Assembly: GCF_004752005.1 (NCBI RefSeq)
Contig: NZ_CP038493.1
Coordinates: 682,001 to 746,000, forward strand
Direction of reading: 5' to 3'
Source of the DNA: Thalassotalea sp. HSM 43
GTDB lineage: Bacteria; Pseudomonadota; Gammaproteobacteria; Enterobacterales; Alteromonadaceae
Length of the DNA stretch: 64,000 nt
The stretch's first letter is position 1. Every line of letters starts with the position of its first letter. Shown here piece after piece: positions 2,507 through 42,795 of this stretch. The position numbers were made by a program, and so were the translations under genes. The notes under the pieces were generated by a model. It had not been told where the DNA came from, did no database searches, and saw only the letters and a list, made by a program, of their open reading frames with translations.

Positions 2507-4468
2507 CTATTGGCTAAAATACTGGCTCGCATATTGAAACGCATCTTGGCCAATTTTATAACCAATTAAACGGCCGGGAATATCGTCGGCTGGTGGATGA
2601 ATTCCTCCCCAAATACGCGATAAGCTGCACTGATCAGACGCGTCTTGGTATGTCGCCCACTGCAGCGTCATATCAACACTTGGCCCTTGTTCAAAGACTA
2701 AAAAGTCATCGGCTGTTATGGCAAAGCTGCTCATCCCGCCGGGGAAGTATTCACTGCCAGTGAGCTTGGTCATCACCTCTGCGGCTGCACGTGAATATGT
2801 AGAGTGACCAGAAACATAACCTGCAAACGGCGGGGTAACGAATGATGGACGCTGATACGGCCACCAATTCTCAGCCAAAATCCAATCAACCCCGGCGACA
2901 TCGTTACTTGCATCAGAGATTGCCGTAGGGCCGCGCCAAGCAAACAGTTTAAGCTTGCCTACATGTTCACCTTCACTACCTGCTAGGACATCACCGTCTT
3001 TAACAAGCTCAACCAAACCAGGCTGTAATCGCAAGCCTTGGAGATGATAATTTGCTTTAGTATTATCACTGCGCTGACCTAAATCGGCCATGGCTCGTAT
3101 CGCAGAGATTGGTCTAATATAGTCATACCAGCCTTTAATACCCCAAGCACTGATTGCTGAGTCATGCATCGCCCCGCCCAAGGTAAAGTAAGCTTTAACA
3201 TCCCACTCTAGGTTATCAAGAACATCGCCTTGCCCTGCAAAGCGAGGCACAAAATCAGGATGATCAAATACCGTGTTTAAGATAACAAACCAATGCCCCG
3301 GTGGCGTTTCTGAATCCGGTCCATCAGCCCAAAACTCAGCGAGTACTCGGGCATAATCGCCTCTTGGTACCATTTGTTGTTGGTATGGCTGACCGGTAAC
3401 CGGGTTTTGAGCATAACCTTGGCCGATATCACCACCATCAAGTTGATAGAAATCACGATGCTCTGCAAATGTTTTAGGGTATTGCTCTAGCGTAATATTG
3501 CCTTGTGATGCTGGAGATATGTCAATCATCACGCCATCGCTTGGGTCTAGTTGAGCGGACCACTCACTGACTAAAGAAAAGCCCCATTCGTATTCATCTG
3601 CCAACTCATCGTCTACCAATGGCGGCATCCCCGGGTCATGATAGATATAATAATCAAAGCCATCGCGTTGTTTGATGGTTAGGTCGTCTTGGGATAAAGA
3701 AAACGGTTTCACTTGTCCCCATTCAGGACCTAAAAATTCAATTGCGCCAGCTACTTCATTGCCAGATTGGTCAATGTAGGTACCAAGATCGAGTGACTGC
3801 CAACGATTCAAATCACTGATATTAGGATTTCCGGGAAGCTCTGGGTCTAGTGCGTCATTACTCACTTGGTAAGCAATATTGCTATAGAGGATATCTTCTT
3901 TGGCACCATCGTCAAAGCCATAAGCGATATAGCACTCGGCGATATAATTTCCTAACGCTGCGGCATCATTTGGGCTTAATTCTGTGTCTACATAATCCTC
4001 ATCATAACCCAACTCTTGCATCAACTTATTGGCAAGCTCAAAGGTATGCTCGGCATCTGGAGATAACTCAAAGCGATGCTGAATAATGCGATATGCAGCA
4101 TAACTTATCGCTGTTTGCTGCGCGCTTTTGCTATCATCAGTCTGCAATTCAATATCAATACGACACTCATTATTATTTAATGATTTCCCCGCTAAATAGC
4201 TGTCATCGTCGCTATATAACGCCCATGCATCATACATGGCCGCAGACACGTGAAACAAATTGCGAGCGTGTACTGTTGGTCTGGCAAAATCATTGCGAAT
4301 ACCTTGCAGCAACACCTCATTCCATTGTCTAGCGACACTGTGGGTTTTGTCTGCTGATTGTTTTGGCAGCACAGGTCTATCGGCTTCATCATTACTATCA
4401 CCACACGCCGTTAGCGCGAGGCCTATTGCCAAACAAAGGCTGGTTTTGGTTATTTTATTTACGTTCAT
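2507..4468 (-). CDS. Vanadium-dependent haloperoxidase family lipoprotein
   Basis: This 653-residue protein has a lipoprotein signal (LTAC, Cys22) and so is predicted to be anchored to an outer or inner membrane leaflet. The C-terminal third carries the full vanadate-binding set of the vanadium haloperoxidase/PAP2 superfamily: Lys445 and Arg452 (KGWYDYIRP, spacing 7), Ser553-Gly554-His555 (GYVSGHS), Arg618 and His624 (RIWGGIH, spacing 6). Phe548, seven residues before the catalytic His, matches the chloroperoxidase Phe397 position. Known members oxidise halides with H2O2. Halide preference cannot be read from sequence, and an acid-phosphatase-like activity is the alternative. The gene starts 10 bases after the CRTAC1-like gene, so they form an operon. 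Confidence 0.85.
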   Translation of the reverse strand: MNVNKITKTSLCLAIGLALTACGDSNDEADRPVLPKQSADKTHSVARQWNEVLLQGIRNDFARPTVHARNLFHVSAAMYDAWALYSDDDSYLAGKSLNNNECRIDIELQTDDSKSAQQTAISYAAYRIIQHRFELSPDAEHTFELANKLMQELGYDEDYVDTELSPNDAAALGNYIAECYIAYGFDDGAKEDILYSNIAYQVSNDALDPELPGNPNISDLNRWQSLDLGTYIDQSGNEVAGAIEFLGPEWGQVKPFSLSQDDLTIKQRDGFDYYIYHDPGMPPLVDDELADEYEWGFSLVSEWSAQLDPSDGVMIDISPASQGNITLEQYPKTFAEHRDFYQLDGGDIGQGYAQNPVTGQPYQQQMVPRGDYARVLAEFWADGPDSETPPGHWFVILNTVFDHPDFVPRFAGQGDVLDNLEWDVKAYFTLGGAMHDSAISAWGIKGWYDYIRPISAIRAMADLGQRSDNTKANYHLQGLRLQPGLVELVKDGDVLAGSEGEHVGKLKLFAWRGPTAISDASNDVAGVDWILAENWWPYQRPSFVTPPFAGYVSGHSTYSRAAAEVMTKLTGSEYFPGGMSSFAITADDFLVFEQGPSVDMTLQWATYQDASDQCSLSRIWGGIHPPADDIPGRLIGYKIGQDAFQYASQYFSQ

Positions 4469-4478
4469 AATCGACTAC

Positions 4479-7400
4479 TTACAGAGTATTGTCTGTTTTC
4501 TTTATTAATATGGATTGATTCACAGCGATGTTTTCAACGGTTTGTATGTCGCCATCTGGCCACGTAACCTGAATGCGTTCAATTTGCTTATGTTGGCCTA
4601 CGCCAAACATCGCCAGAGCCGGCGCTTGAGAAGTAAAATTACTGTTGAGATTGATATGACGGTATTGCTTATTGTTACGGGTGTGCACTTCAACTATAGC
4701 ACCAATACCTTGGCTGTTATGCTCAGTGGCAGATAACCTAACCGTAAGATAGTTGCCTAATTGGTTACCGTTTTGGTTTTCATAATACAGCAAGGCATTT
4801 TTGCCCACGGTGTGGTCGGTTAAAAGGATATCGACGTCACCGTCATTGTCAAAATCGCTACATAAGACCGCCCTTCCTTGACCTTGGTGACTCAATCCGA
4901 CGTTAATGTTGGTGCGAGAGAAGTTGCCATCTTTGTTATTAAGAAATAACGCCACGGTATCGTTTAAATGGCTTTCGTAATGACTGGCGGCATCTGAGTT
5001 GATAAGCCAGCCATTGACGTTAAACAGATCAATCCAGCCATCATTGTTAAAATCCGCGGCACAACTTGCCCAGCCCCAACCACCGTTAAAGGTATTGCTG
5101 GCATAAGAGACATCGACAAAACTGCCATCACCATTATTTTTAAGAAGTTTATTACCACTAAACGATAAGCTACCGCTTGTACCATCAAACTGGGTGATAC
5201 TGGTGACAAACCAGTCTAAGTCACCGTCATTATCAATATCTGCGAGACTGCTGCCCATGCCTTGCAAATCATCAATACGGATATTTAACTCATCACTGCT
5301 ATCGGATAGCGTGCCATCTTCCTGACTGAGCATCGACATGCTGGTACTGTGATCTGAGGCGACGAGGATATCCTGCAAGCCATCCTGATTTATGTCGGCA
5401 AAGCTGGCGGTAAACATATAGTCTTCATTTTGCGTATCGCGCTGATGTGTGGTTGCAATGCTGGTTAGCTTACTGCTGTCATCAATGGCAACAAAGCGAT
5501 TGTCGCCTTTATTTTGCCATAGTAATTGCGGCTCTGAGGCAAGGCTTTCGCCATAATGGGTCAGTAACATATCCAATTTGCCATCTGCATCAAAGTCACC
5601 AAACGATGTTGAAATATTGAATGCGTTATTTGCGGCTATGGCGCTATTGCTGTCACTGAACTTACCATTACCGTCATTGATAAATAGCACATTTTCAAAG
5701 CCTGGCATGGCGGCGACAAATAGATCCAGATCGCCATCACCATCGGTGTCAGCAAACGCCGGCCCTGAATATAAACCATTCAGCTGCACCCCGGCTTGTG
5801 CTGCGATATCAATGTAACTGCCATCATTTTGTTGTTGATATAATTTACTCGCTTGGCTATTACCACCAACCACATATATATCAATGTCACCGTCTTGATC
5901 GTAATCACCACTGGCTAAGCCGCCAGCAACATTGTAGGCAACATTTTGCGTAGCATTTGCTGGCGAAACGTCATCAAGTTGCCAGCGATGGGTTAAGCCG
6001 AGCAAGTTGCTAGAGTCGGCAAAGATAAGACCACTGTTTAGTACATCGGCGTCAAAGTTGATATCGTCAATGTCATCTTCATCGTCCGGTATACCATCGT
6101 TATCGTCGTCATTGTCGGCATTGTCACCTACACCATCGTCGTCATTATCTTTACTTTCCGTCGCATCGAGTGGGAATGCATCGTCGATATCGATGACTAA
6201 ATCATTATCGTCATCAATGTCCTGATTATTGCCTATGCCATCGGCGTCACTGTCTAAGAATTCAGTTTTATCAAATGGAAAGGCATCATCAATATCCAAC
6301 ACGCCATCGTTGTCATCATCGTTATCAGGCAATAGGCCGCCACTATCGGCAAAGCCGTCAAAATCGAAATCATTAAACGCTATATCTGGCACCCGATTAT
6401 CTGTATCGTCAGGGTCTTGGCCAAGCGGCCAACCGTCTTCGTCGGCGTCATTATTCTGCCATTTAGTGTTGTCTAACGGGTAAGCATCATCTGCGTCATT
6501 TACGCCATCGTTATCATCATCCTCATCGGCGTTATTGCCAATACCATCTAGATCGCTGTCCATGTGTTCTGATGCATCAAGCGGAAAATGATCTTGTAGG
6601 TCGGCGATACCATCATTGTCATCATCTTGGTCTTTATTATCGCCAATACGATCCGCATCATTGTCTTGATATTCGCTAGCGTCGAACGGAAATGCATCGT
6701 CTTGATCTAGTATTTGATCATTATCATCGTCATTATCTTCATAGTCACCGAGACCATCAACGTCATTGTCGTGATGTTCATTTAAATTTGTTGGAAATTG
6801 GTCGATGACATTAACAAAACCATCATTATCGACATCGTCATCAATACGATTTACTTGGCCGTCGTCATCAGTGTCGATAATCGTACTTTGCAATAAAAGT
6901 TGTTCAGTAAAATAGTGACGACTGAGGCGCTCAACAGTGACTTTTTGTTGCGCTGATAAGTTTGCATAGTGTGCATTAAAATCATCGCCTAAAACCGTTA
7001 AAGGCAAGCCGTATTGATGGCTCCAGTGTTGGCTTATAGACGCCAGTTGTTGCTGAAAATCGTTAATATTCAGGGCTGACATATGCAGCTTTTGCCAATA
7101 AGAGCGACTGTGCTCAGCAAGTAATGCATGCACTGGCGTTATCGATAGATTGGTTAGGTCATTGTCGCTATTCTCAATAGCTACTGGCAGCGATGCGATC
7201 GTGCCTGCAAGGTGAGCAAATATCGGCGTATCGAGGTAGTTTTGCTCGTTGCCAGAAAATAACAATACCGGCTGAATATAGCTTAAATCCGCCAGTGATG
7301 GTGCCGATAGTTGAAATTCAAATTCGCCGTGTTGCAGCTCACTGGCAACCTCATTCTCATCAGCCAGACCATTACCATTGCGGTCTATAAATACCGACAA

Positions 7401-7874
7401 TGATGTTATGTCTAAATGTTCAAACCCCGCTAAACTGCCAGAAATGGTTAAACGGTCATAAACCGCGATATCAAAGTGCTGAGTAATCGTTTGCCCCTGA
7501 TATTGCACGGTTAACGTGATGTCGTTATACGTGCCGGCATCAGTTTGTGACGGTGTGCCCATCAGCTGACCTGTCTGTTCATCAAGACTTAACCAACTCG
7601 GTTGATTGGATAATGAAAAACTAAGCTGACTGGTATCGATGTTTAACTTGGGTGTATAGGTATATGCCTCAAGTTCATTTACTTGCTTAGCTGGCGTTGA
7701 GCTCTGATCGAATGCTAACACTGCCTCTTTATCTGCTTGGCTGTTGCTAGAACCTTTGTTTGAACCGCCACATGAGACGAGTGTTGTGGATAACGTTAAC
7801 GACAGAAGCGCTGTGCTAACAACCGATTTAACACGGTAAACAGCGGGCTTTGATGGGCAATTTTTTATTTTCAT
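4479..7874 (-). CDS. CRTAC1-like lipoprotein: TSP3 repeats, FG-GAP propeller, ASPIC/UnbV domain
   Basis: I place the start at the ATG at 7874 (1131 residues) because it gives a normal lipoprotein signal (LVSC, Cys35). The frame also opens at a GTG at 7919, which would add 15 residues before the signal. In order: a He_PIG-like Ig domain (about 60-140, SFSLSNQPSWLSL and GTPSQTDAGTY), a Ca2+-binding DxDxDG thrombospondin type-3 repeat array (about 335-625), FG-GAP/VCBS blades (about 655-1045, as in DQDGDIDIYVV and DFDNDGDVDILL), and a C-terminal ASPIC/UnbV domain (QVTWPDGDIQTVEN). The architecture suggests a secreted Ca2+-stabilised beta-propeller. It heads an operon with the haloperoxidase; a shared function is inferred from pairing only. 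Confidence 0.85.
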   Translation of the reverse strand: MKIKNCPSKPAVYRVKSVVSTALLSLTLSTTLVSCGGSNKGSSNSQADKEAVLAFDQSSTPAKQVNELEAYTYTPKLNIDTSQLSFSLSNQPSWLSLDEQTGQLMGTPSQTDAGTYNDITLTVQYQGQTITQHFDIAVYDRLTISGSLAGFEHLDITSLSVFIDRNGNGLADENEVASELQHGEFEFQLSAPSLADLSYIQPVLLFSGNEQNYLDTPIFAHLAGTIASLPVAIENSDNDLTNLSITPVHALLAEHSRSYWQKLHMSALNINDFQQQLASISQHWSHQYGLPLTVLGDDFNAHYANLSAQQKVTVERLSRHYFTEQLLLQSTIIDTDDDGQVNRIDDDVDNDGFVNVIDQFPTNLNEHHDNDVDGLGDYEDNDDDNDQILDQDDAFPFDASEYQDNDADRIGDNKDQDDDNDGIADLQDHFPLDASEHMDSDLDGIGNNADEDDDNDGVNDADDAYPLDNTKWQNNDADEDGWPLGQDPDDTDNRVPDIAFNDFDFDGFADSGGLLPDNDDDNDGVLDIDDAFPFDKTEFLDSDADGIGNNQDIDDDNDLVIDIDDAFPLDATESKDNDDDGVGDNADNDDDNDGIPDDEDDIDDINFDADVLNSGLIFADSSNLLGLTHRWQLDDVSPANATQNVAYNVAGGLASGDYDQDGDIDIYVVGGNSQASKLYQQQNDGSYIDIAAQAGVQLNGLYSGPAFADTDGDGDLDLFVAAMPGFENVLFINDGNGKFSDSNSAIAANNAFNISTSFGDFDADGKLDMLLTHYGESLASEPQLLWQNKGDNRFVAIDDSSKLTSIATTHQRDTQNEDYMFTASFADINQDGLQDILVASDHSTSMSMLSQEDGTLSDSSDELNIRIDDLQGMGSSLADIDNDGDLDWFVTSITQFDGTSGSLSFSGNKLLKNNGDGSFVDVSYASNTFNGGWGWASCAADFNNDGWIDLFNVNGWLINSDAASHYESHLNDTVALFLNNKDGNFSRTNINVGLSHQGQGRAVLCSDFDNDGDVDILLTDHTVGKNALLYYENQNGNQLGNYLTVRLSATEHNSQGIGAIVEVHTRNNKQYRHINLNSNFTSQAPALAMFGVGQHKQIERIQVTWPDGDIQTVENIAVNQSILIKKTDNTL

Positions 7875-7937
7875 TTTGATGGTATACAGCTTATCGATTA
7901 CACCCCCTATCCTTATCACAATAAACGACGCTGATAA

Positions 7938-7954
7938 TGTTAACTTTTGTTAAA
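7938..7954. promoter_or_regulatory. GTTAA-N5-GTTAA direct repeat upstream of the CRTAC1-like gene
   Basis: TGTTAA-N4-TGTTAAA, two half-sites one helical turn apart, lies 64 bases upstream of the 7874 start. The same arrangement occurs at 10928 and 14593. The spacing resembles tandem sites of OmpR/PhoB-family regulators (for example the CpxR pattern GTAAA-N5-GTAAA). The regulator is not identified. Confidence 0.45.
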
Positions 7955-8064
7955 GTGGTGCTAATAATGCGTTACCCACTGCGGCGTTGGCGACAGCATG
8001 GGATAACATGATTTGCCAATGCTAGCTGACAATGTGTTTATTCGTAGGCGTTGTTTTAAGCAAA

Positions 8065-8092
8065 AAAAACAGTAGCCGAAGCTACTGTTTTT
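8065..8092. terminator. Rho-independent terminator after the 893-residue lipoprotein gene
   Basis: A 12-bp perfect stem (AAAAACAGTAGC / GCTACTGTTTTT) with a CGAA tetraloop lies 20 bases beyond the stop codon of the minus-strand gene. The T-tract is suitable on either strand. Confidence 0.85.
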
Positions 8093-8111
8093 ACTTGGGG
8101 GTATTAAGTTA

Positions 8112-10793
8112 TTACTTAACAGGCATCATCACATTTTCAACACGGATGGTCTCACCAGATGCTGTGGTTAGGTTAAGGTTCACAGTGATGTGAGTAACCG
8201 TACCACGCGTATCAGATGGACGCAGTGATGTTAATGAATTAGTGATTTTATAGAAGTAGTTTTTACCTTCCATAACGTCGCTTGGGAAACCTGTGCGTAC
8301 TGGTAAGCCGTAAGCTGAACCTTCAACATCAGACTTATTGTTGCCGTTATAAATTAGGGTGTTATCCCAAGTGTGCATAACGTAGTACATTTCTTCTGCA
8401 GCGTTACCGTAAGACGCATCTTCTTCAAGGTTGATACCAACGATTTCGTTGACTTCACGCTCACCAGTACCAGCGCCACCTAAACCGTCGTTTGCCGTTG
8501 CATCCCAGAATACGTTATGAGATTTAACGATAGTAACGTTACCCGTTAATGGCTCTGGAGAAACTAGGTATGCCGCACGGAATGATGTTTCACCGTCTGC
8601 GTAAAGCATTTTGCTTACAACTTCGTAATCATCAACAACGTATGAGTACCAAGTGGCCATATCGACAACTTTCGTTTTCGCAGGGAAGTAATCAAAACCT
8701 TCGCCAGGGTAGATACATTGCCATGTACCATTGTCCCAATAAGGGTGAGAGAAAGTACATTGACCGTCTGGCGTTTGTTGCCATTGCCAGTACGCATCAC
8801 CAGCGGCTGCCATTTGACCATTAAGACCAGGTAAGTCAATCCAGTTAGCATCTGAGTCTAACCAGTTTTCTTGACCTTCATAGTTAGTCCACTGGTAACC
8901 TTCGTTAGTGTACGTGGTAGCCGCTACGTCAATACCAGCACCGGTTGCAACAACTAAGTTTTCAGCCGTTGCTTGTACTGCCATCGCTTCTGGAATCATT
9001 TCATCGATCATCACATCGATTGCTGTCGCACTGCCTTCTACTGGTGTTGTAACAAATGAAAGTTGCAGTTGCTCACCGTGTTGTAGGTCAGTTGCGTTGA
9101 AGTAACCGCGTGGTAATGCGTCAACATGACCGGTAGGCAGTACCGGAGTCTCGGCATCAGCGTCGTAGCTTTCGCTATTTAGAGTAATGGTAAGAACAGT
9201 TTTGTCTTCGTTCCAGCTAAACTCTGCGCCATCTTCACCGGCCGCGATTAAATCGTGGCGAGTGTTGCTGCCGGCATCACGATAGAAACCGTGAACCCAA
9301 CCATTGGTACCAGCTAAGATTTTACCATCAGTACCAACCATTGGTGCACCAACAGTCACTTGTGACCATGTGCTGGTTTCATCATAGTTATCAGCTTTGT
9401 ACTTAATAACACCTTCAACGATGTTATTACCTTCTTCATCAACACCTGTTACCGCTGTTGAATCAATAGCTTGTGTGTCACCTAGTACGGTTTCAGTAGG
9501 ACATAAGCCTTGTTCCCAAGGGTCTTCACATAGAGTGCCATCTTCGTTAAAGAAGTAGTAGCTGTGCTCACGACCTGATTGACGGAAAGAGTAGTTTTCA
9601 AGGTCGCCACGCATTCTTACAAATTCTGAGTAAGCTGTTACACGGTCACCTAAAATTTCAACTGGTTGGTTGAAAATTACAGTGAATTTAGCTTCGGTAC
9701 CAGCAACTACAGATGAAGAAACAACTTTATATTCAATTGGTAGTGCTTCACCGTTTTCAGTGTCAGTATTCATCGCTAGAGTGATGTTTGCTGAAGAAGC
9801 CGCTTGGTCAAATGACGGTAGACCTGCTGAAGCAACATCCATTGCGGCGAACATAACGCCATCAATTTCAACCATATCTAGAGCGATTGGGTTCATTACT
9901 TGCGCAAAAGATAGGTCAGTGATCCAATACATTTGTGATGCATCATCCCATGCCGCCATTAATTCGCCGTCATTTAGGTATAAGTGTTCAGGACCTTGTG
10001 TCACCATAGAACCATCAGCAAATTCTAGACCGAAACTAACGGTGAATAATGTCGCTTGGTGTGCGTCGTCAACATAAACCATTGGGCTTTGACCAGCAGC
10101 AACAGACATTGCACCGCCAACAACCACGTAGTCCATACTTTGGCTAGCAAATGCACCAGCAACTTCTACGTCAAATGACGTACCATTTGCCGGAAGCATA
10201 AAGGTGTAAACACCGTTGCTCTCGCTGGCAAATACGTTAGGAATGCTTGATAGGAATTCGCTATCACCTTCCATTTGCACGCTTGGCATGTTCTCAATAC
10301 CTGCCGCATCAGCACCGTTTACGTATAAAGATAAACCGGTTACTGGCGCGCCCATCATGTCAACAATGCTTACCGATGTTGGTACAGAATCATAGACAGC
10401 GATAGGATCAATATTTAGCGCACCAGAGTTTGTGGTGCCTTGAGCGTATGCAGTCGCTTTGCCTTCTACGTTTACAGCAACGATAAAGTCAGAGTTTGTT
10501 GGTAGGCCATCGATTGCGTAGCCAGTACCAGAGGCAACAGCAGGAACCACTTTACCATCAACGTGAAACTCAACGCTTGCACCTGATAGTGCCGCCATTG
10601 TGTTACCGTCAACCACTGACACGTATGCAGATGCCATAACTGGATCAGCTGGTGTTGGTGTCGGTGTAGGAATTTCTACGATTTCAGTTCTGGTATCTTG
10701 AACTTCAACATCGTCACCACCACAAGCAGCAAGCATGCTGGTAGCAACCATTGTCGCGATCAATGATTTATTAAATTTTATTGTATTGGACAT
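8112..10793 (-). CDS. Large lipoprotein of unknown function
   Basis: The 893-residue start is the ATG at 10793, which has a GGAAG ribosome site 5 bases upstream; an in-frame ATG at 10805 has none and spoils the signal. The lipoprotein signal ends LAAC (Cys24), followed by an acidic stretch and a TPTPTPADP linker. Residues of about 55-160 look like a carboxypeptidase-regulatory-type beta-sandwich (GASVEFHVDGK). The rest is acidic, rich in Gly, Ala and aromatics, and unassigned, with several Trp-rich stretches near 640-700. It resembles large surface lipoproteins of marine gammaproteobacteria. No enzymatic motif was recognised. It is monocistronic, between two terminators. Confidence 0.75.
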   Translation of the reverse strand: MSNTIKFNKSLIATMVATSMLAACGGDDVEVQDTRTEIVEIPTPTPTPADPVMASAYVSVVDGNTMAALSGASVEFHVDGKVVPAVASGTGYAIDGLPTNSDFIVAVNVEGKATAYAQGTTNSGALNIDPIAVYDSVPTSVSIVDMMGAPVTGLSLYVNGADAAGIENMPSVQMEGDSEFLSSIPNVFASESNGVYTFMLPANGTSFDVEVAGAFASQSMDYVVVGGAMSVAAGQSPMVYVDDAHQATLFTVSFGLEFADGSMVTQGPEHLYLNDGELMAAWDDASQMYWITDLSFAQVMNPIALDMVEIDGVMFAAMDVASAGLPSFDQAASSANITLAMNTDTENGEALPIEYKVVSSSVVAGTEAKFTVIFNQPVEILGDRVTAYSEFVRMRGDLENYSFRQSGREHSYYFFNEDGTLCEDPWEQGLCPTETVLGDTQAIDSTAVTGVDEEGNNIVEGVIKYKADNYDETSTWSQVTVGAPMVGTDGKILAGTNGWVHGFYRDAGSNTRHDLIAAGEDGAEFSWNEDKTVLTITLNSESYDADAETPVLPTGHVDALPRGYFNATDLQHGEQLQLSFVTTPVEGSATAIDVMIDEMIPEAMAVQATAENLVVATGAGIDVAATTYTNEGYQWTNYEGQENWLDSDANWIDLPGLNGQMAAAGDAYWQWQQTPDGQCTFSHPYWDNGTWQCIYPGEGFDYFPAKTKVVDMATWYSYVVDDYEVVSKMLYADGETSFRAAYLVSPEPLTGNVTIVKSHNVFWDATANDGLGGAGTGEREVNEIVGINLEEDASYGNAAEEMYYVMHTWDNTLIYNGNNKSDVEGSAYGLPVRTGFPSDVMEGKNYFYKITNSLTSLRPSDTRGTVTHITVNLNLTTASGETIRVENVMMPVK

Positions 10794-11149
10794 TTTTCTT
10801 CCCATTAGACTAGTTTTTATTCGTGCTTCTAAGCGTTTTATTCTTATTCGTTAACAAACTGTCAACCTGTACTTAACCTTAAAAACACTTGCGCAAACCC
10901 AATGTAAATCAGCAAACTTACGATGTTTGTTAAAAAGTGTTAAACCCATTCACAATCCATCAACGAATTTATAAAAAACCATACATAACAAAAACTTAAA
11001 CCAAATAAACTTATTAACTAACGCCGCAACAAATCAGCACTTATGTACAATAAAAATACGTATCGAATATTTTTCAGCCATAGCTTTAGTGAGGTCATTA
11101 ACAAATGAAAAAGCTAACTGCTGGGCGTTAATCTAGGCGCAAATAAACG
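10794..11149. other. Intergenic spacer, leader of the 893-residue lipoprotein gene
   Basis: This is AT-rich sequence upstream of the minus-strand gene. It contains the GTTAA-N5-GTTAA repeat listed separately. I see no convincing ORF, RNA gene or mobile element. Confidence 0.6.
10928..10944. promoter_or_regulatory. GTTAA-N5-GTTAA direct repeat upstream of the 893-residue lipoprotein gene
   Basis: TGTTAA-N4-TGTTAAA, the same half-sites and spacing as at 7938 and 14593, lies 135 bases upstream of the 10793 start. Confidence 0.45.
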
Positions 11150-11181
11150 AAAACCCCGACAAAGCAAATTATCGGGGTTTT
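11150..11181. terminator. Rho-independent terminator after the RCC1-like lipoprotein gene
   Basis: A 10-bp stem, AAAACCCCGA / TCGGGGTTTT, with a 12-base loop lies 54 bases beyond the stop at 11235. The minus strand reads out into a T-tract. Confidence 0.75.
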
Positions 11182-11234
11182 AACTTAGTCTTTAATGACT
11201 GTTTAAAATTGTGTTATACGCTCTAGAGCAAAGC

Positions 11235-14200
11235 TTAATTAAAAGTAAATGGTTCCAGTACGTACACTTCATCTTGGTACGTGCCACTACCACCAGGCTC
11301 TTTTAAGATACATTCGATAGCCGCGCCACTACCAACACAAATAGCGTTGGTACCACTTACAGCCCATTCGATATTTTGCATTAGTGGTGTTGTTGGTACA
11401 TAACTGTCACCCACCATATCTTCAAAGCAATGTAAGCTACCTGTGCTTAATAACGCACAGTATTCTCGACCAATACCTTTGATGATATCAGACACTGAAT
11501 CGTTAAATTCAGGGACAGTTACTCGATCAACCCAACCGGTTATGATGATTTGCTGTAACTCTTCGCTCCACTCTTCAATGGCATCTTGGCCCCAACAATC
11601 GACACTGCCATTGCCAAGTGAACAAATGGAACCATAACGCACCTCAAGTTTTTCCGTTGATGCTTGCAAGCTTGGTACTTCATGCAGCTTTTCTTCTTCT
11701 TTGCCCCAACAGGTTGTACCGTTTTCATCAACAGCACAGGCTAATACATTGTTGCCATACAATTGAGTCACGGTACCTAGGCTGTCCGGTACGCTAACAA
11801 CGTTGTATAAATCATCGCCCCAACATTTCACCGTGCCAGCATCTAATGCACAACTGAACTGATCACCGGATAGCAAAGCGGTTACGTCAGTAAAGCTTGG
11901 CACATTCGCCACTACGGCGGCCCCCTCTTCAGCAAAACATTTTACCGTTTGATCTGCTTGGGCAACACAGTAGTGAGTATTACCAACCGCTAGAATTTCA
12001 GGGTCTGTGACATCAGGGTTGGCTTCAAATTCACCACCATGACAATGCACGGTATTGTTGTACAAAGCACAATTACCATAGTTAATTTGAGCTATAACAC
12101 CACCGGCTTGAACCACCGCATCGATAGGTAATTCAACGTCTTCATCATTGACACGAAAAGTAAGAATTTCTAACTCGCCGGCAATATCATACTTACTACA
12201 GCCAATTTGATTGGTATCTTCAATACCGACACAAATATCATAATTGCCCGGCATTACATCCGGCAAAGGCACGTAGCTGTAATTAAGTTTTTCACGGTGG
12301 TAAGCGCTAATTGCTTGCTTAGAAAACTCAACACCTTGCTCTGTTTTACTGTACTTGATGGCGATGCCATCTTCGATGCTGCCGCTGACAACCACCAGAT
12401 TTGATTTGCCAAGGTAATCAGACAATTCGAGAACACCGCTGCCAATGCTCTTCCAATTAAATTGCACGTTACCGCTTTCACGGTAATATTTGCCTTTTAA
12501 ATTAGACATCAGCTCAATGTAATAATCGCTGTAAGCATAAAAACCTGCGGATTGTTCAACATCGACCGATTTTGAGTGAATGGCAATGTCGTTTTCAAGT
12601 AGGCTGATGTATTGCCCATCCGTCAGTTCAGTATTATAAACTTCAACGGCCAACAAAGACGGTAACGTCAAAAGCACATCGACATTGGTGACGTCAGTGT
12701 CGTTAATGATCAGCTTTTGCAATTTAGCCATACCGCTCAATAAACTGGTATCGACGAAATTGGAATTACTGGCTTCAATTTGTAATAAATCAGCCAATTG
12801 CGAGATAGCACTCCAGTCACTCACTTGCGAACCAGGTAAGTTTAGGTATTGCAAATTAGAAAAATTAGCTAGGTCTTGTAAACTAGCGATAGTGCTATCG
12901 GCACAGCTGAACGAGTTAATTTTATAGACGTAGTCATCTTGAGAGTTTGCTAAACAGCTTTGCAGTACTGCGTCGGTCAAGGTCAGTTCAGATACTTTCT
13001 TGTCATAAACGTTTTGATCCGGGTCAACGTCATTTAGCAGACCATCACCATCAATATCATCATCACTGTTATCACCGGTGCCATCACCGTCGGTATCTAA
13101 CCATTCAGAGGCATCCGTTGGAAAGGCATCTGAATTATCACCATAACCATCGCTGTCGCTATCTAACCACTCGTTTGAGTCTTGTGGGAACGCATCCGAA
13201 TTATCGCCATAACCGTCGTTATCACTGTCTAACCACTCGCTAGAATCTGCCGGAAATGCGTCTTGGTCGTTGTTGATACCATCACCATCGCGATCGATAT
13301 CGGCGTTATCACCGATAAAGTCCATGTCGATATCTGACCATTCATTAGCATCGGTAGGAAACGCGTCAAGGTCATTATTGACGCCATCACCATCGATATC
13401 GTTATCCAAATTATTAACGACACCGTCATTGTCCATATCATGGCTATCACTGTGTTGATATTGCCATTGGCTGACAAGTTGCTCTGCACGAGCAACAAGA
13501 CGTTGTTGTTGTTCATCACTGATTGGCGCTGAGTCACTTAAGAAATCACCAAACATGCCTGCAGAATTAACCCCATAAATCGTCGACAGGCTATTTTTTT
13601 GTAACGCGACAGCATCGCGAAAGCCTTGTTCTGAGATGGTTCCTGCGTGCAATTGCTGCAGTTCAGCTGACAGCTGTTGTGTTAATTGCTGAGTAAATGG
13701 AGAAATAACCTGAGTGATGGCTTTATCATAATTTAGCGCCGTGAACGGCACCGTAGATAGGGTCACTGGCATAGCCGCGAAATCATCGTTATCGCGACTG
13801 ATATCGTCCGCGCCCTCACCTAAATAGGCACGTAATGGGGCAATACTTAAAGCACTTTTATCATCACCTGCGACATGCAACTCGTATATGCCAGCAGCGT
13901 CCGAAAGCGCAAACGGTTCACTGTTATCCCATGCGCCGTTGGCATTTACGTCTAAATAGACTTTCGCACCTGAAACGTAGCCATCAACAACTGGGCCAGT
14001 TATCACATAGGTATCGTCAACGGTAATCGAGAATGCCTCGAGTTGAGCTGAATCGGTGCCATCTGAGACGCTAACGATAATATTGTCATAACTTCCAGCA
14101 TCAGACAGTGATGGTGTGCCTGATAACTCACCGGTTGTGCTATCTAATGATAGCCATGCTGGTAAGTTCAATGCTGAGAACGTCAATGTATCGCCAACAT

Positions 14201-14420
14201 CGGCATCACTGGCACTGATGGTTACCGCATATTGCTGTAACTCATTAACTGACAAATCAGGAGATGCAGAGATCACTGGCACATTATTTTGCGCCGGAGG
14301 TGGCTTTTGCTTGTTGTCATCAGCGCCACCGCCGCCTCCACCGCCGCCACATGCGGACAATGAAACAGCTAAGGCAACCGTCGATAATCGCGTGAGAAGT
14401 TTTCTCTGGACCGTACTCAT
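11235..14420 (-). CDS. Lipoprotein with He_PIG, TSP3 repeats and RCC1-like propeller
   Basis: This 1061-residue lipoprotein has lipobox LSAC (Cys24) followed by eight Gly. In order: a He_PIG-like Ig domain (about 45-130, LNLPAWLSLDSTTGELSGTP), a beta-sandwich with a DVNANGAWD loop (about 135-200), a helical stretch, Ca2+-binding TSP3/DxDxDG repeats (about 325-460), a leucine-rich-repeat-like segment (about 485-600), a spacer, and a C-terminal RCC1-like region (about 780-1050). That last part contains seven units of the type C-A-x(n)-V-x-C-W-G, each with a Cys pair. Seven blades is the RCC1 propeller number, and the Cys pairs suggest disulfides outside the cytoplasm. The ligand is unknown. It shares its N-terminal plan with the 4479-7874 protein. 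Confidence 0.8.
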   Translation of the reverse strand: MSTVQRKLLTRLSTVALAVSLSACGGGGGGGGADDNKQKPPPAQNNVPVISASPDLSVNELQQYAVTISASDADVGDTLTFSALNLPAWLSLDSTTGELSGTPSLSDAGSYDNIIVSVSDGTDSAQLEAFSITVDDTYVITGPVVDGYVSGAKVYLDVNANGAWDNSEPFALSDAAGIYELHVAGDDKSALSIAPLRAYLGEGADDISRDNDDFAAMPVTLSTVPFTALNYDKAITQVISPFTQQLTQQLSAELQQLHAGTISEQGFRDAVALQKNSLSTIYGVNSAGMFGDFLSDSAPISDEQQQRLVARAEQLVSQWQYQHSDSHDMDNDGVVNNLDNDIDGDGVNNDLDAFPTDANEWSDIDMDFIGDNADIDRDGDGINNDQDAFPADSSEWLDSDNDGYGDNSDAFPQDSNEWLDSDSDGYGDNSDAFPTDASEWLDTDGDGTGDNSDDDIDGDGLLNDVDPDQNVYDKKVSELTLTDAVLQSCLANSQDDYVYKINSFSCADSTIASLQDLANFSNLQYLNLPGSQVSDWSAISQLADLLQIEASNSNFVDTSLLSGMAKLQKLIINDTDVTNVDVLLTLPSLLAVEVYNTELTDGQYISLLENDIAIHSKSVDVEQSAGFYAYSDYYIELMSNLKGKYYRESGNVQFNWKSIGSGVLELSDYLGKSNLVVVSGSIEDGIAIKYSKTEQGVEFSKQAISAYHREKLNYSYVPLPDVMPGNYDICVGIEDTNQIGCSKYDIAGELEILTFRVNDEDVELPIDAVVQAGGVIAQINYGNCALYNNTVHCHGGEFEANPDVTDPEILAVGNTHYCVAQADQTVKCFAEEGAAVVANVPSFTDVTALLSGDQFSCALDAGTVKCWGDDLYNVVSVPDSLGTVTQLYGNNVLACAVDENGTTCWGKEEEKLHEVPSLQASTEKLEVRYGSICSLGNGSVDCWGQDAIEEWSEELQQIIITGWVDRVTVPEFNDSVSDIIKGIGREYCALLSTGSLHCFEDMVGDSYVPTTPLMQNIEWAVSGTNAICVGSGAAIECILKEPGGSGTYQDEVYVLEPFTFN

Positions 14421-14592
14421 AATTTCCCCTGAGTTTATTTAACTTGTGTTTATTTTTATTCGGGCGAAATACCAATTGAATAAAACCACAGTGCTCTGCT
14501 CGACACCTGACGGTAGGCAAGGCAAAGGGTTTAAGACAGGGACATTAACGCCAAACTATCAAGCTAATCTAAAGAAAGGGGTATCAGAATTA

Positions 14593-14609
14593 TGTTAATA
14601 AATGTTAAA
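14593..14609. promoter_or_regulatory. GTTAA-N5-GTTAA direct repeat upstream of the RCC1-like lipoprotein gene
   Basis: TGTTAA-N4-TGTTAAA lies 173 bases upstream of the start at 14420, with the same spacing as the two sites at 7938 and 10928. A further GGTTAAC word follows at about 14619. Confidence 0.45.
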
Positions 14610-18557: not shown

Positions 18558-18663
18558 TTGTTTTTATTCCTACCTGGATACGCCTTAGGCTTTATCTATT
18601 TTATCTTGTACGCGTGATGCCTGATTTGCGATGACATCTTACAATGTTAATACACTGTTAACT

Positions 18664-31085: not shown

Positions 31086-31787
31086 TTATTGGCGGCGTCT
31101 GCGAGTAGCTGCTAATCCTACTAAACCAAGTGCTAATAACACTAAGTTAGAAGGTTCAGGCACTTCAGCAGGAACATCTAAACTAGATGCGGCGAAACCT
31201 GAAACATAGAACGTTTGATTAACATAAGAAATTGTAAAGCTATCACCTTCACCAAATAAGAACATACTTGGGTCGTCGTTAACCCATGCCCAATTACCTG
31301 GATCCAGTTCCATACCATCAGTTACAGGTTCAAAGTCAACAGACGGACCACCTATATCTGAAAAGTCTACATTAATTAAGTCACCTACACCTAAATTACC
31401 ATCGTGATAGTTATTAAACCAAAGTTGTTGCAAACCAACTTTAGTACCTTCATCGAGACCACTAAAAGTAAATACTAAGTACTCAGCTTCAGTGACATTA
31501 TCATTGCTCGACGGTACACATTGCATAGCGTCGTCCACGTCAGCACAAACACCTAAACCACCAGGTCCAGTATTGTTTGGTGCATCAAGGTACGCATAAA
31601 CGTCATCGTCATCATCAAGATCATCAAAACCTGTAATGGTCAGAGTGTATCCATCCATTTCATAAACCAATTCCAAAGCACCACCCTCAGTCTCACCTAA
31701 TTCCATAAAATTAAGGAAGCCCGCTGAAGCGGTCGAAGAAATCGTCAAGCCTAAGCATGCTAGAAACGCGTAAATTAACTTTTTCAT
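31086..31787 (-). CDS. PEP-CTERM sorting-domain protein (paralogue pair A, 1)
   Basis: The start at 31787 (233 residues) has AGAGG 6 bases upstream; the frame extends to 31808. A signal peptide (SSTASA, about residue 22) is followed by an acidic beta-rich domain with FWFNN-type motif LQQLWFNNYHD and GPGGLGVCAD, then the sorting signal VPEPSNLVLLALGLVGLAATRRRR. Such proteins are processed by an exosortase at the inner membrane and exported to the surface or biofilm matrix; no exosortase is in the window. It is a clear paralogue of the next gene upstream. A sigma-54 promoter lies at 31831-31848. Confidence 0.9.
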   Translation of the reverse strand: MKKLIYAFLACLGLTISSTASAGFLNFMELGETEGGALELVYEMDGYTLTITGFDDLDDDDDVYAYLDAPNNTGPGGLGVCADVDDAMQCVPSSNDNVTEAEYLVFTFSGLDEGTKVGLQQLWFNNYHDGNLGVGDLINVDFSDIGGPSVDFEPVTDGMELDPGNWAWVNDDPSMFLFGEGDSFTISYVNQTFYVSGFAASSLDVPAEVPEPSNLVLLALGLVGLAATRRRRQ

Positions 31788-31830
31788 ATTTAACCTCTGT
31801 AAAGACATAAAAGAATCACCGCTTTAACTT

Positions 31831-32055: not shown

Positions 32056-32748
32056 CTAAATACGGCGTCGACGCGTCGCAATCAGACCGATTAGACCAAG
32101 TGACATTAGCACTAAGTTTGCAGGCTCAGGAACTTCAGCGGGCGGACGTGTCACATCAATTTCCATCGCTGACAGGTAAAACTCCTGATTAAAGTAGGCA
32201 AGTGATACATAGTCGCCGCTGCCAAATACATATTCGCCGGCATCAGCTACCCACGCGTAAGTGCCTTTAACACCGTCAATAACTTCGCCGTCTGCAACTG
32301 GGCTAAATTCACCAACCATACCGCCGATACTGGAAAAGTCGACACTGATCATGTCATCGGCATCTAAACCTTCATCATGGTTATTATTGAACCACAACTG
32401 AGTCAGACTAACGCTTACACCTTCGTCTACTTCGAAGGTCAACATCAATGATTCGTCAATGGTAATGTTGTCATCAGAACCACATTCATCCAAATCTTCT
32501 GGGCACACGCCTAATCCGCCTGGGCCTCTTCGGTTTGATTCATCAAGGTATGGAAATGCCATTTGATCGCCTAACATCGCTGTGATTGTTAGCGTAAAAC
32601 CGTCACCTTCATACACCCAAGATTCACCGACAGAGCCTTCGCCAGGCTCGTTATCGGCAAGATCCATAAAATTGATTACGTCGGCAGATGCGGTTGAAGA
32701 AATCATCAATCCTAGACTAGCCAAAGTAGCATACAGAAACTTTTTCAT
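32056..32748 (-). CDS. PEP-CTERM sorting-domain protein (paralogue pair A, 2)
   Basis: The start at 32748 (230 residues) has GAGGTG 7 bases upstream; the frame extends to 32841 without a ribosome site. It has a signal peptide (MISSTASA), a domain matching its neighbour (LTQLWFNNNHDEGLD, RGPGGLGVCPEDLDEC, SVDFSSIGG) and the PEP-CTERM tail VPEPANLVLMSLGLIGLIATRRRR. It is a tandem duplicate of the gene at 31086, each with its own terminator and sigma-54 promoter. The Cys pair in CPEDLDEC is a difference. The ligand or matrix partner is unknown. Confidence 0.9.
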   Translation of the reverse strand: MKKFLYATLASLGLMISSTASADVINFMDLADNEPGEGSVGESWVYEGDGFTLTITAMLGDQMAFPYLDESNRRGPGGLGVCPEDLDECGSDDNITIDESLMLTFEVDEGVSVSLTQLWFNNNHDEGLDADDMISVDFSSIGGMVGEFSPVADGEVIDGVKGTYAWVADAGEYVFGSGDYVSLAYFNQEFYLSAMEIDVTRPPAEVPEPANLVLMSLGLIGLIATRRRRI

Positions 32749-32796
32749 ATTATTCACCTCAATATTGCAATCGTTATTATAGTAACGAACAGATAA

Positions 32797-32814
32797 CTGC
32801 AAACACCTTGCCAA
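32797..32814 (-). promoter_or_regulatory. Sigma-54 (-24/-12) promoter of a PEP-CTERM gene
   Basis: Minus strand TTGGCAAGGTGTTTGCAG closely matches TGGCAC-N5-TTGCA, with GG-N10-GC spacing. The GC is 51 bases before the start codon at 32748. Confidence 0.8.
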
Positions 32815-33224
32815 TATTGATTTACCCAAATTATTCAGCAACTTAACAAGCGGTCAGTATAGAAAACTACATTTTATAAGCCGTTACGTAAAAAAAGCTG
32901 ACGCAATTCCTATCTTTGCCACTATAAAAGTAGGGTTATTGTTGATTAGTTATTCATTTACCTATGATTTTTGTCTTTCTGAAAATCACTTTAAAAGGCC
33001 AAAACCAATATTTACAATGCCTACAGAGTAGTCACAATATAAACATGGTTAAATAGGCTGGTTTATTATTTTTTGACAGGCAACTGAAAGCGAATTGAGT
33101 ATTTTATGGTCACTTATCTTGTAAAACCGGTTGTTTACCGCCTTGCACTGGCATTTAACAATCAGTTAACATAGGTTAATAAAGACGCAAATTTGATATG
33201 GTACGTAAAGAGGGAGGAAGAACA
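32815..33224. other. Intergenic spacer upstream of the 132-residue secreted protein
   Basis: AT-rich, with no convincing ORF or RNA gene. It includes a GTTAA-N5-GTTAA site at 33165-33179, similar to the three sites near the large lipoprotein genes. Confidence 0.5.
33165..33179. promoter_or_regulatory. GTTAA-N5-GTTAA direct repeat upstream of a small secreted protein gene
   Basis: GTTAACATAGGTTAA has two half-sites 10 bases apart, 45 bases before the GTG start at 33225. It has the core and spacing of the sites at 7938, 10928 and 14593, but the flanking T before each half-site is missing. Confidence 0.35.
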
Positions 33225-39388: not shown

Positions 39389-39635
39389 CTAGTAAGCGCT
39401 ATACTGTAACCCATATGTAACTTTGTGTCGCATTTGTTATCCACCTTTGCTAGCATGCGGGCAGTTTACAGCGCGTAAAAACGATGATTGTTAACACTTT
39501 TTTACAGCGATGTTAATAGCAAACTATTAAAGTGAAATAGTTCGATATCAATAGGCCATGGTGAGCAGGTTTTTGCTTACCTAGTATATGCATATTGATG
39601 ATTTCCATTTGGGATGAAGACAGTTAAACAATCAT

Positions 39636-40466
39636 ATGACAGCCCGTATCATAAAAGCGGCACTAATTAGTGCTTTTTGCTCTGTTATGGCATTACCAGC
39701 ATTTGCAGAGCAACAAAAACAACAACCAATCGAAGAGTCATCACAAGACGTGGATGATACATTTTTCGCGATCAAATTTTCCGCTGGTAAGTATCACTTT
39801 GAATCGCCGTTAAATTTCAAAGAAGATGTTGAGTTTTATTTTCTTCCCACTTGGACTTTTTACTATAAAGATCTGTTTTTTATAGAAAATACCAAGATGG
39901 GTTTAAACCTTTACATCGACGCCGATGAGACTTCCACCACCATCGTTGATCTGGTGACAAGACATAACTTTGATGGCTTGTATTATCACATGGATGACGA
40001 TTTTGTCAGCTTTGTTGACCCAATGCTACCGCCATTTAACCACCCTTCGACTGATGCCCACTTAAGCTATTTAGGTGGTGTTGAAGTTAAGCATTATTAC
40101 GATAAAAACATCATCACCTTTGGTGTGTTTTCCGATATTTCCAATGTACACCATGGCGAAGAAGCGGAAGTGTCTTGGCAGCGAGTGCTGTTTAATAAAG
40201 GCACGGATTTTAAATTATCCGCAGAAGTTGGCGCACTCTACAAATCGGATCAAGTATTAGAGTATTACTACGGTTCGCCATTAGATGGTGACAATATCAA
40301 TTATTATTCTCGAATTGATGCCGCCTATGAGCTATCGGATGGTTTATATTTGGTGGCGAACTTCAAGTATGAACGTTTGTCGAGCAAAATCATTAGCTCA
40401 CAAGCGACCGATAAAAAGGAATTACAGAGCGGTTTCATTGGAATAAGTTGGTTAACGAATTGGTAA
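39636..40466 (+). CDS. MipA/OmpV family outer-membrane protein
   Basis: The 276-residue protein has a signal peptide (MALPAFAEQ, cleavage near 24) followed by alternating amphipathic beta-strands with many aromatics and a C-terminal ISWLTNW, like MipA/OmpV barrels. It heads a four-gene unit with the DUF3019 gene (13 bases), a response regulator and a kinase. Linkage to a two-component system suggests it is a target or part of the sensing pathway. Confidence 0.85.
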   Translation: MTARIIKAALISAFCSVMALPAFAEQQKQQPIEESSQDVDDTFFAIKFSAGKYHFESPLNFKEDVEFYFLPTWTFYYKDLFFIENTKMGLNLYIDADETSTTIVDLVTRHNFDGLYYHMDDDFVSFVDPMLPPFNHPSTDAHLSYLGGVEVKHYYDKNIITFGVFSDISNVHHGEEAEVSWQRVLFNKGTDFKLSAEVGALYKSDQVLEYYYGSPLDGDNINYYSRIDAAYELSDGLYLVANFKYERLSSKIISSQATDKKELQSGFIGISWLTNW

Positions 40467-40479
40467 ACCCTGTAATACT

Positions 40480-40866
40480 ATGAAATACAGCGTCAAGGTA
40501 CTTGCCTTATTAGCTTTGTTAATGTCTATGCCGAGCCTTGCTCAGGCAGATGAGACTGTGTTTAGCGTTATGCCAAACAAATGCATTGTTAAAAATAAAG
40601 GAGAGAGTTGTAACACCGAACTCACTCTGCAATGGCAATTACCCGACGCACAAAACATCTGCATTCTTAAAAATAATAACATCGTCCACTGTCAACAAAA
40701 TAGTAAACAAGGTTCATTTGTTTACCCGGTAGAGACGGCAGAAACATTGAATTTTAAATTGGTAGAAATGACCACCTTAACCGAGCTTTCGACCTTTAAA
40801 TTCAGTCTATTATACTTAGGTAAAACATCGGCGAAACGCCGCAAACTTCCTTGGCGATTGTTATAA
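40480..40866 (+). CDS. DUF3019 family secreted protein
   Basis: The 128-residue protein has a signal peptide (SLAQADE, about residue 23). The mature part is a small beta-rich domain with four Cys (CIVKNKGESC and NICILKNNNIVHC), probably two disulfides, matching DUF3019 as seen next to MipA and OmpR-type regulators in Alteromonadales. It could be a periplasmic accessory or sensor for the kinase; the function is unknown. The stop overlaps the regulator's ATG by one base (TAATG). Confidence 0.8.
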   Translation: MKYSVKVLALLALLMSMPSLAQADETVFSVMPNKCIVKNKGESCNTELTLQWQLPDAQNICILKNNNIVHCQQNSKQGSFVYPVETAETLNFKLVEMTTLTELSTFKFSLLYLGKTSAKRRKLPWRLL

Positions 40867-41600
40867 TGCAAGAATATGAACTACAAAAAATACTTCTCAT
40901 AGAAGATGATCACAAACTTGGTCTAAAGATAAAGCGATTTTTAGAGCAACATGATTACGAAGTTGAATGGCTTAATGGCGGCTCTTTGTTGGGTGTTGAC
41001 GCAAAAGTTAATGCCTTCGATGTGATATTGTGTGATATCGATTTACCTGACATGTCTGGCTTTGATATATGCAACCAATGGCGCGACAAGTTCGATGGTG
41101 CGTTTATCTTTATCACAGCCTTTACTGACTCAGATTGTCAAATTGAAGGCTTAGAAATGGGCGCAGATGATTTTATCGTCAAACCTTTTGTGCCGGATGT
41201 ATTGTTAGCTCGTGTTCGAACCGCAATTCGCAAATTAAAACTGTTCAAAGCAAAAGATGAATCACCTTCATCAACGCAAAGTGACGATGAGACACCGATT
41301 ACCCTACCTGAGCTGCACTTAACTCCAGCAACACAGCAAGTTAAAGTGGCTGATACCCTACTTAACCTCACGCAACAAGAGTTTAAAATCCTCTACTTAT
41401 TTGCCCGCAATTTTAATTATAAAGTGACCAGGGATGTGATCAGCAAGATCGTCATGAATCGTGAATATGATGGTTTTGATCGAAGTGTTGATGTCTATGT
41501 CAGCAAACTGCGTAAAAAGTTTAACACCATAAACGGTAACCCTTACCAAATTAATACCTTATGGGGTAAAGGTTACGTGCTTACTAATCAGGAAGATTAA
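40866..41600 (+). CDS. OmpR/RstA-family response regulator
   Basis: The start is the ATG at 40866, coupled to the DUF3019 stop (244 residues). The receiver domain covers about 7-120 with acidic pair IEDD, phosphoacceptor Asp57 (CDIDLPDMSG) and VKPF lysine. A linker of about 25 residues precedes a winged helix-turn-helix (LTQQEFKILYLFARN, VDVYVSKLRKKF). It likely controls the upstream mipA-DUF3019 genes and others. It is paired with the kinase 7 bases downstream. Confidence 0.92.
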   Translation: MQEYELQKILLIEDDHKLGLKIKRFLEQHDYEVEWLNGGSLLGVDAKVNAFDVILCDIDLPDMSGFDICNQWRDKFDGAFIFITAFTDSDCQIEGLEMGADDFIVKPFVPDVLLARVRTAIRKLKLFKAKDESPSSTQSDDETPITLPELHLTPATQQVKVADTLLNLTQQEFKILYLFARNFNYKVTRDVISKIVMNREYDGFDRSVDVYVSKLRKKFNTINGNPYQINTLWGKGYVLTNQED

Positions 41601-41607
41601 CAAATAA

Positions 41608-42795
41608 ATGAACAAGCAGTTTCTGCGTCTCACGCTATTTTTGGTGGCGTCGCTAATTATTTTAGCGCTAAGTCTCCAATTAGTATGGGAGTCCATTGAA
41701 CCAAGTGAGACGGTGATATCCGTCGATGATTTTTATCACTCGTCTATTGAACGTAAAGGCGATATCTTTACCATGGTGCCGTTAAACACCATTTCATTGC
41801 CAGCGGATATGCTTGAGCCGTTAAAAGGCGGTGAAATCATTCGTGTTGATGACGAACAAGATAACGCCTATTACTATAAGCTCCACAATAACGCGGTATT
41901 AATTTTAGGGCCGATTGTTGACGACGATCTGGGCCAAGACAGTCACCAGTTAGTGACTACATTATTTTATGCTGGCTGTGGTTTAATTATCTTATTCTGG
42001 TTTCGACCTGCTTTTGTCGATTTACGTAAATTATCGACCTCAGTTATGGAGTTCTCCAAAAACGCCAAATGGCAACACTTGCATTTAAAGCCTACCTCAA
42101 TTGCCTACCCTGCTGCCAATACCATCAATCAAATGGCTGAACGCATTGAGCAATTAATCGATTTGCAAAAAAATCTATCACGTATGGTCGGTCATGAAAT
42201 ACGTACCCCTCTGGCTCGTACTGGGTTTTCGATAGCCAGCTTAAAGCACGAGCCTAGCCTTGATGAATTGCTGTCTATTGAAGAAGACTTGCAAGAAATT
42301 GAAGATCTCACTGAAGAATTTTTGCAAATTACCAAGCTGGAATTCGACTCGAAAGACATTGTTTTAGTTAAGCAAAATGTTTATGCTCCAATCGAAGATT
42401 TAGTCAATAAATTACAAAAAGCATCACGCATTAATATCGTTATCGACATGGACAATAATGTCACTGCACCGGTCGAAACCAAAACCTTTAAACGTTTAAT
42501 GCAAAACTTGATCACCAATGCCTTAAAACACGCCAATGAACAAGTTGAGATACGCTTTAGCCAGGTCAACGATCAATTTACCATCAGTGTCAGCGACGAT
42601 GGCGGCGGCTTTGAACAAACCCAACAGCTTGATAAACCGTTTTATCAAGGCAACCCAAAAGTCGATGGTTATGGCCTAGGTCTTTCGATTGTTAAGATGA
42701 TTGCCGCTTGGTATCAAGGCGATATCCAATTCACCCAATCAAACACCTTAAATGGCGCTAAAGTCAGCTTTACTTGGCCTATAGACGAAGATTAA
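41608..42795 (+). CDS. RstB-like sensor histidine kinase
   Basis: The 395-residue protein has an N-terminal helix (7-27), a periplasmic domain of about 85 residues, a second helix (115-135), a HAMP-like stretch, HisKA with GHEIRTPLARTGFSI (His196), and HATPase with NLITNALKHA, VSDDGGGF and GYGLGLSIV. The H-box HEIRTPLART resembles RstB. The periplasmic domain is small. The signal is unknown; MipA and DUF3019 in the same unit suggest an envelope or cationic stress input. Confidence 0.92.
   Translation: MNKQFLRLTLFLVASLIILALSLQLVWESIEPSETVISVDDFYHSSIERKGDIFTMVPLNTISLPADMLEPLKGGEIIRVDDEQDNAYYYKLHNNAVLILGPIVDDDLGQDSHQLVTTLFYAGCGLIILFWFRPAFVDLRKLSTSVMEFSKNAKWQHLHLKPTSIAYPAANTINQMAERIEQLIDLQKNLSRMVGHEIRTPLARTGFSIASLKHEPSLDELLSIEEDLQEIEDLTEEFLQITKLEFDSKDIVLVKQNVYAPIEDLVNKLQKASRINIVIDMDNNVTAPVETKTFKRLMQNLITNALKHANEQVEIRFSQVNDQFTISVSDDGGGFEQTQQLDKPFYQGNPKVDGYGLGLSIVKMIAAWYQGDIQFTQSNTLNGAKVSFTWPIDED

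Follow-up and report, generated by a model that had tools for sequence, protein, structure and literature searches.

We analyzed a 64,000-nucleotide window of the Thalassotalea sp. HSM 43 genome (NZ_CP038493.1, positions 682,001 to 746,000; window coordinates are counted from its first base), in which a tandem TTAACA repeat recurs in front of genes for large lipoproteins. Comparison of the sequences makes it highly probable that a single RstBA/OmpR-like two-component system encoded in the window activates, through this operator, both its own operon and a set of genes for extracellular proteolysis and uptake. The existence of a regulon is well supported because unrelated gene families share the site and because it is found upstream of relatives that are 31-47% identical. 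The circuit itself is of a familiar kind, and its prediction is new.

Exact matches to TGTTAA-N4-TGTTAAA are located in the window at 7938-7954, 10928-10944 and 14593-14609, each 5' of a large lipoprotein open reading frame on the minus strand, as the first-pass annotation of this DNA had reported. That annotation considered the 15-base pattern GTTAA-N5-GTTAA too rare to recur by chance. In the window, the pattern exceeds shuffled sequence (17 matches with at most one mismatch vs 7.6 +/- 2.9 in shuffled sequences, and at least 17 in 0 of 100 shuffles); genome-wide, the bare pattern, which is looser than the real motif, is only mildly enriched (35 matches vs 23 for the reversed control). A search for exact repeats across the genus sharpened the motif to a 16-mer that reads TTAACA-N-TTTTTAACA in the gene sense. 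Operator 2 (10928-10943, minus strand; gene sense TTAACACTTTTTAACA) matches it perfectly and is kept 100-137 bp upstream of relatives in four other genomes (G002, G003, G005 and G007). Operator 3 (14593-14608, minus strand; gene sense TTAACATTTATTAACA) has one mismatch, as does operator 4 (39491-39506, plus strand; TTAACACTTTTTTACA), which lies 129 bp 5' of the regulator operon described below and has a counterpart preceding the same operon in the same four genomes. Operator 4 had been overlooked in the first pass, along with two further sites just left of the window, at genome positions 680773 and 680843.

Allowing one mismatch, the 16-mer occurs 12 times in the 4.01-Mb genome, with seven matches inside 645-722 kb (binomial P ~6e-10 for this region, which was chosen post hoc). 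The expectation that genuine sites would lie outside genes and be conserved upstream of orthologues was borne out: all 12 are intergenic, each with the start of a gene in the same sense 33-184 bp downstream, and the motif is conserved upstream of orthologues. Genes for exported or outer membrane proteins stand behind 11 of the 12 sites. Two of the sites precede the gene for an S8 subtilase that ends in a GlyGly-CTERM-like tail. The other targets are the MipA operon and genes for an M16 peptidase lipoprotein, TonB-dependent receptors, immunoglobulin-like (He_PIG) and poly-Gly lipoproteins, and a small exported protein. At the S8 protease promoter there are two operators, separated by 70-72 bp in three species and by 127-150 bp in two (680773/680843 in HSM 43, 1622144/1622216 in G003, 1469955/1470026 in G007, and likewise in G005 and G002). 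Additional S8 and M36 peptidases and another TonB receptor are encoded downstream of target genes on the same strand, after gaps of 34-70 bp, and may share their transcripts. Taken together, the targets appear to serve extracellular proteolysis and uptake.

To examine promoter geometry, we took 53 sites from the upstream regions of genes in five related species, representing 17 target groups, and aligned them on the motif. The sole other strong columns form a TAnnnT hexamer at offset 37, which starts exactly 37 bp past the first base of the motif at 33 sites and in 10 target groups; at other offsets from 22 to 59, this hexamer occurs at 0-5 sites each, except for 14 at offset 32. In the window, the corresponding -10 elements are TACATT (10901-10906, minus strand) for operator 2, TAGATT (14566-14571, minus strand) for operator 3 and TAAAGT (39528-39533, plus strand) for operator 4. 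No TTGACA-like -35 element is recognizable 17 bp upstream of the -10 in this alignment. Given a -10 that lacks a -35-like partner, the layout suggests an activator-dependent promoter, in which the 16-bp core would occupy about -49 to -34 relative to the predicted start, like the site of a class II activator. Operator 1 (7938-7953, minus strand; gene sense TTAACAAAAGTTAACA) is the weakest of the set, with three mismatches, all in the spacer, and no TAnnnT at offset 37. Nevertheless, it is probably a regulon member, because the orthologues of the gene behind it in G002 and G005 carry three-mismatch sites 90 and 123 bp upstream and, on reading of the flanks, TAnnnT at offset 37 in both.

A genus-wide search for OmpR-family DNA-binding domains led to the plus-strand operon at 39636-42795. 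It encodes a MipA/OmpV-family outer membrane protein (39636-40466; PF06629, 2e-14), a DUF3019 protein with a signal peptide-like start that is predicted to be periplasmic (40480-40866; PF11456, 2e-20), a response regulator with receiver and Trans_reg_C domains (40866-41600) and a histidine kinase with RstB as its best curated match (41608-42795). The response regulator belongs to the OmpR/PhoB subfamily by its domains (PF00072, 2e-21; PF00486, 5e-19; both above cut-off) and is the candidate operator-binding protein. Both this operon and the presumed targets have a conserved 10-bp direct repeat in front of them, and the regulator gene adjoins or lies within each site cluster. The first-pass suggestion that one OmpR/PhoB-family regulator controls these surface proteins is strongly supported and now has a candidate; the regulon, however, is wider than the lipoproteins to which it had been tied.

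The regulator and the sites co-occur across genomes. Clusters of the exact repeat were also found in G003, G005 and G007, and a regulator orthologue (84-86%) is present in five of the 15 genus genomes, exactly those with site clusters; the chance of this agreement would be 1/3003 for independent genomes, which these are not. Among 395 genomes of the family, the regulator is found in seven, namely the five genus genomes and two more (G017 and G115). A scan with the regulator alignment recovered one true orthologue, apparently on the G017 contig; the other matches were unrelated regulators. In G017, which belongs to another genus and has a regulator 64% identical, all three exact TTAACANNTTTTAACA matches of the genome fall on the 60-kb contig that carries the operon, in front of genes for an S8 protease, a lipoprotein and other exported proteins. 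When sites with one mismatch on this contig are counted too, the genes behind them encode S8 proteases, a lipoprotein, a TonB receptor and a DsbC-like protein. In the remaining 77 of the 79 family genomes sampled, the exact motif hardly occurs (8 matches in all). The M16 peptidase gene, present in all 15 genus genomes, served as a control, for which upstream sites with at most two mismatches were counted. All 5 of the 5 regulator-bearing genomes have such a site before the copy in the cluster or the sole copy, whereas 0 of 4 second copies in these genomes have one; in regulator-lacking genomes, it is found in 1 of 10 (chance 6/3003 under independence).

Several observations weigh against this interpretation. 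The second-genus orthologue in G115 (49% identical) is not accompanied by site enrichment, so that operator specificity seems to have changed at that distance. Conversely, G006 lacks the regulator and has a one-mismatch site (TTAATATTTTTTAACA) 115 bp upstream of its M16 gene, which could be an ancestral remnant or the site of a second binder. The five regulator-bearing genomes do not count as independent cases, and since regulator and regulon sit in one cluster, their co-occurrence may partly reflect joint inheritance. Finally, the site at genome position 3263316 precedes a gene for a probably cytoplasmic HAD-type protein. This place, between the HAD-type gene and a gene for a large ATPase-like protein, is occupied in three species by a near-palindromic variant, TTAACATTTATTAACA / TTAACATTTGTTAACA (3263316 in HSM 43, 1682390 in G003 and 1413946 in G007), which probably serves a different regulator.

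The G006 site also bears on the unlikely alternative that housekeeping OmpR, or a widespread OmpR-family paralogue, binds the operator and has the nearby two-component system simply among its targets. The motif does resemble the OmpR consensus GTTACAnnnnGTTACA, and HSM 43 encodes 22 Trans_reg_C proteins from which such a binder could come. Yet genomes that lack the regulator and are rich in OmpR-family proteins have no motif clusters, and most of them have no site before the M16 gene. That the motif keeps to genomes with the local regulator also does not match a widespread regulator such as ArcA. ArcA recognizes TGTTAA-like direct repeats, but its boxes have an 11-bp centre-to-centre spacing (PMC3798270), whereas the conserved set is spaced at 10 bp, so that identity with the ArcA box is very improbable. 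The genome does contain many repeats of the ArcA type: among the 100 listed of 133 genome places, 9 TGTTAA-Nk-TGTTAA pairs have a period of 10 bp and 12 a period of 11 bp, while every other period is represented by 0-5 pairs. There are, accordingly, two repeat classes in this genome, the 10-bp class and an 11-bp class with ArcA-box spacing.

Chance recurrence of AT-rich repeats, or copying of sites by gene duplication, has next to no probability. The genome is AT-rich, the bare 15-mer is mildly enriched throughout it, and several of the lipoproteins are distant paralogues; against this stand the sharing of the site by unrelated families at the same distance from the -10, the strong clustering quantified above, and conservation between species and into another genus. 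As for the direction of control, a protein bound near -40 can also obstruct RNA polymerase, so a regulator that represses its target promoters is conceivable; we consider this improbable, because promoters that depend on an activator typically look like these, with a good -10 and nothing that resembles a -35 hexamer 17 bp upstream of it.

With activation by the local system as the favored reading, the circuit could operate as follows. An envelope or periplasmic signal would lead the histidine kinase to phosphorylate its partner response regulator, with MipA and the DUF3019 protein, encoded in the same operon, as candidate accessory parts. The regulator would bind, as a dimer at about -49 to -34, the operator made of two direct TTAACA half-sites 10 bp apart with a T-rich spacer, in front of promoters that have a -10 and no recognizable -35, and would recruit RNA polymerase by class II-like activation. 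The predicted output comprises S8 subtilases, the M16 peptidase lipoprotein, TonB-dependent receptors, immunoglobulin-like and poly-Gly lipoproteins, and the mipA-DUF3019-regulator-kinase operon itself, which would coordinate digestion of extracellular proteins with uptake. Computation shows directly that the site exists, that it is conserved, that it keeps a fixed distance to the -10 and that it co-occurs with the regulator; that the regulator physically binds the site and activates rather than represses, as well as the nature of the signal and the role in the cell's physiology, is what we infer. We found no described regulator for these large secreted and surface proteins, and the circuit proposes one, together with its operator and its targets.

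The window sites precede three lipoprotein units on the minus strand. Operator 1 stands before a gene for an FG-GAP/UnbV-ASPIC repeat lipoprotein with a He_PIG domain (4479-7919; the true start is likely the ATG near 7874). A gene for a vanadium-haloperoxidase-like (VCPO/DUF6851) lipoprotein (2507-4468) lies 10 bp downstream and is probably on the same transcript; the orthologues of the two are also neighbors in G002 and G005. Operator 2 belongs to an 897-residue lipoprotein of no known family (8112-10805), for which searches of Pfam and NCBIfam and a scan of named genomes gave no match. Its N-terminal part is conserved in several species of the genus, and a search for relatives identified orthologues in G003 (47%) and G007 (44%) and a 31% relative in G005, all with the motif 120-137 bp upstream in the same orientation. 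Operator 3 precedes a 1061-residue poly-Gly lipoprotein with a He_PIG domain (11235-14420), the orthologues of which in G003 (49%) and G007 (47%) bear the operator variant TTAACAGTTTTTAACG.

A position at 33165, before a small secreted protein, had been offered as a fourth example of the motif. The sequence is present, but it was rejected as a member: by eye, it has four mismatches to the refined motif, 18 bp separate it from the ATG, and it overlaps a repeat with a period of 11 bp (TTAACAATCAGTTAACA), so that it represents a different element. The surrounding repeat at 33155-33180 (TTAACAATCAGTTAACATAGGTTAATA; 11-bp, then 10-bp spacing), located before the secreted protein gene at 33198, resembles an ArcA-type array. 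Another ArcA-like repeat with 11-bp spacing (TGTTAATACACTGTTAA) is found at 18645-18661, between genes for a MlaA-like lipoprotein and a sigma-54-type response regulator. Elsewhere in the window, two adjacent genes (31086-31808 and 32056-32841) encode proteins with PEP-CTERM-like tails (VPEPSNLVLLALGLVGLAATRRRR). Outside it, five very large exported proteins with GlyGly-CTERM-like tails (S8 and M36 peptidases, Calx-beta) crowd one 40-kb stretch (genome 641-681 kb) together with TonB receptors. In G071, an apparently identical 8.2-kb tandem duplication at 1620-1637 kb includes a receptor-like gene and an acyl-CoA dehydrogenase gene; it could be real or an assembly effect.

Our literature searches returned no report on the present system, and DUF3019 is mentioned by no paper in the library searched. 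The operon nevertheless has relatives: in 17 other genomes of the family, MipA and DUF3019 genes lie, as here, directly upstream of a regulator gene, with regulators 36-40% identical. The TTAACA tandem site is absent upstream of mipA from nearly all of these paralogous operons, which probably use other operators; a search for a site common to their upstream regions gave none. The shared arrangement and the missing site together point to a family of modules with separate specificities, apparently one that has not been described. It is conceivable, although we hold this only tentatively, that MipA, DUF3019, regulator and kinase form a signaling module of a so far undescribed class, widespread in the Alteromonadaceae, that connects the outer membrane with the cytoplasm. 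In such a module, MipA and DUF3019 would inform the kinase about conditions at the cell surface, such as protease products or secretion load, and every orthologous group would have an operator and a secreted-protein regulon to itself. The circuit in HSM 43 gives a testable role to such two-component operons, which are present in many genera of the family.

Among characterized systems, CpxAR, to which the first-pass annotation had likened the sites, shares the 10-bp tandem period, envelope genes as targets and a DNA-binding domain that aligns with the one found here. However, the half-sites, read on the corresponding strand, are GTTAA here vs GTAAA in CpxR sites, the regulator misses the CpxR equivalog cut-off (128 of 341 bits), and the targets differ from the usual envelope-stress genes; TTAACA-N-TTTTTAACA is closer to the RstA and OmpR boxes. 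Both the RstA box TACATNTNGTTACA and the OmpR consensus GTTACAnnnnGTTACA are 10-bp-period repeats (PMC4117788, PMC7315122), which fits the period of the operator. EnvZ/OmpR is similar in response regulator subfamily, tandem sites and outer membrane protein targets, but the OmpR equivalog cut-off is missed by a wide margin (152 of 331 bits), and the regulator here is confined to 7 of 395 family genomes. The regulator scores about equally for OmpR and RstA.

For the kinase, the best score is with RstB; the DNA-binding domain of the regulator can be aligned with Klebsiella pneumoniae RstA through the recognition helix (YDGxDRSVDV). The conserved motif TTAACANTTTTTAACA resembles the RstA box in its period and in its two ACA half-site ends 10 bp apart, whereas the leading bases differ. 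In RstA, Arg207 contacts a G in the box (PMC4117788). Arg199 and Val203 are kept in the regulator studied here, but Arg207 is replaced by Lys, and the leading G of the half-site by T. A link between the two changes is suggestive and would make this circuit a case for a specificity shift in the OmpR family on an RstA-like recognition helix. Unlike in the RstBA system of enterobacteria, the operon includes MipA and DUF3019, and the targets are secreted proteases, receptors and lipoproteins; the equivalog cut-offs are missed by a wide margin (RstA, 150 of 330 bits; RstB, 175 of 478). By all appearances in sequence, then, the system acts like an RstA/OmpR-type regulon while belonging to neither family by curated criteria.

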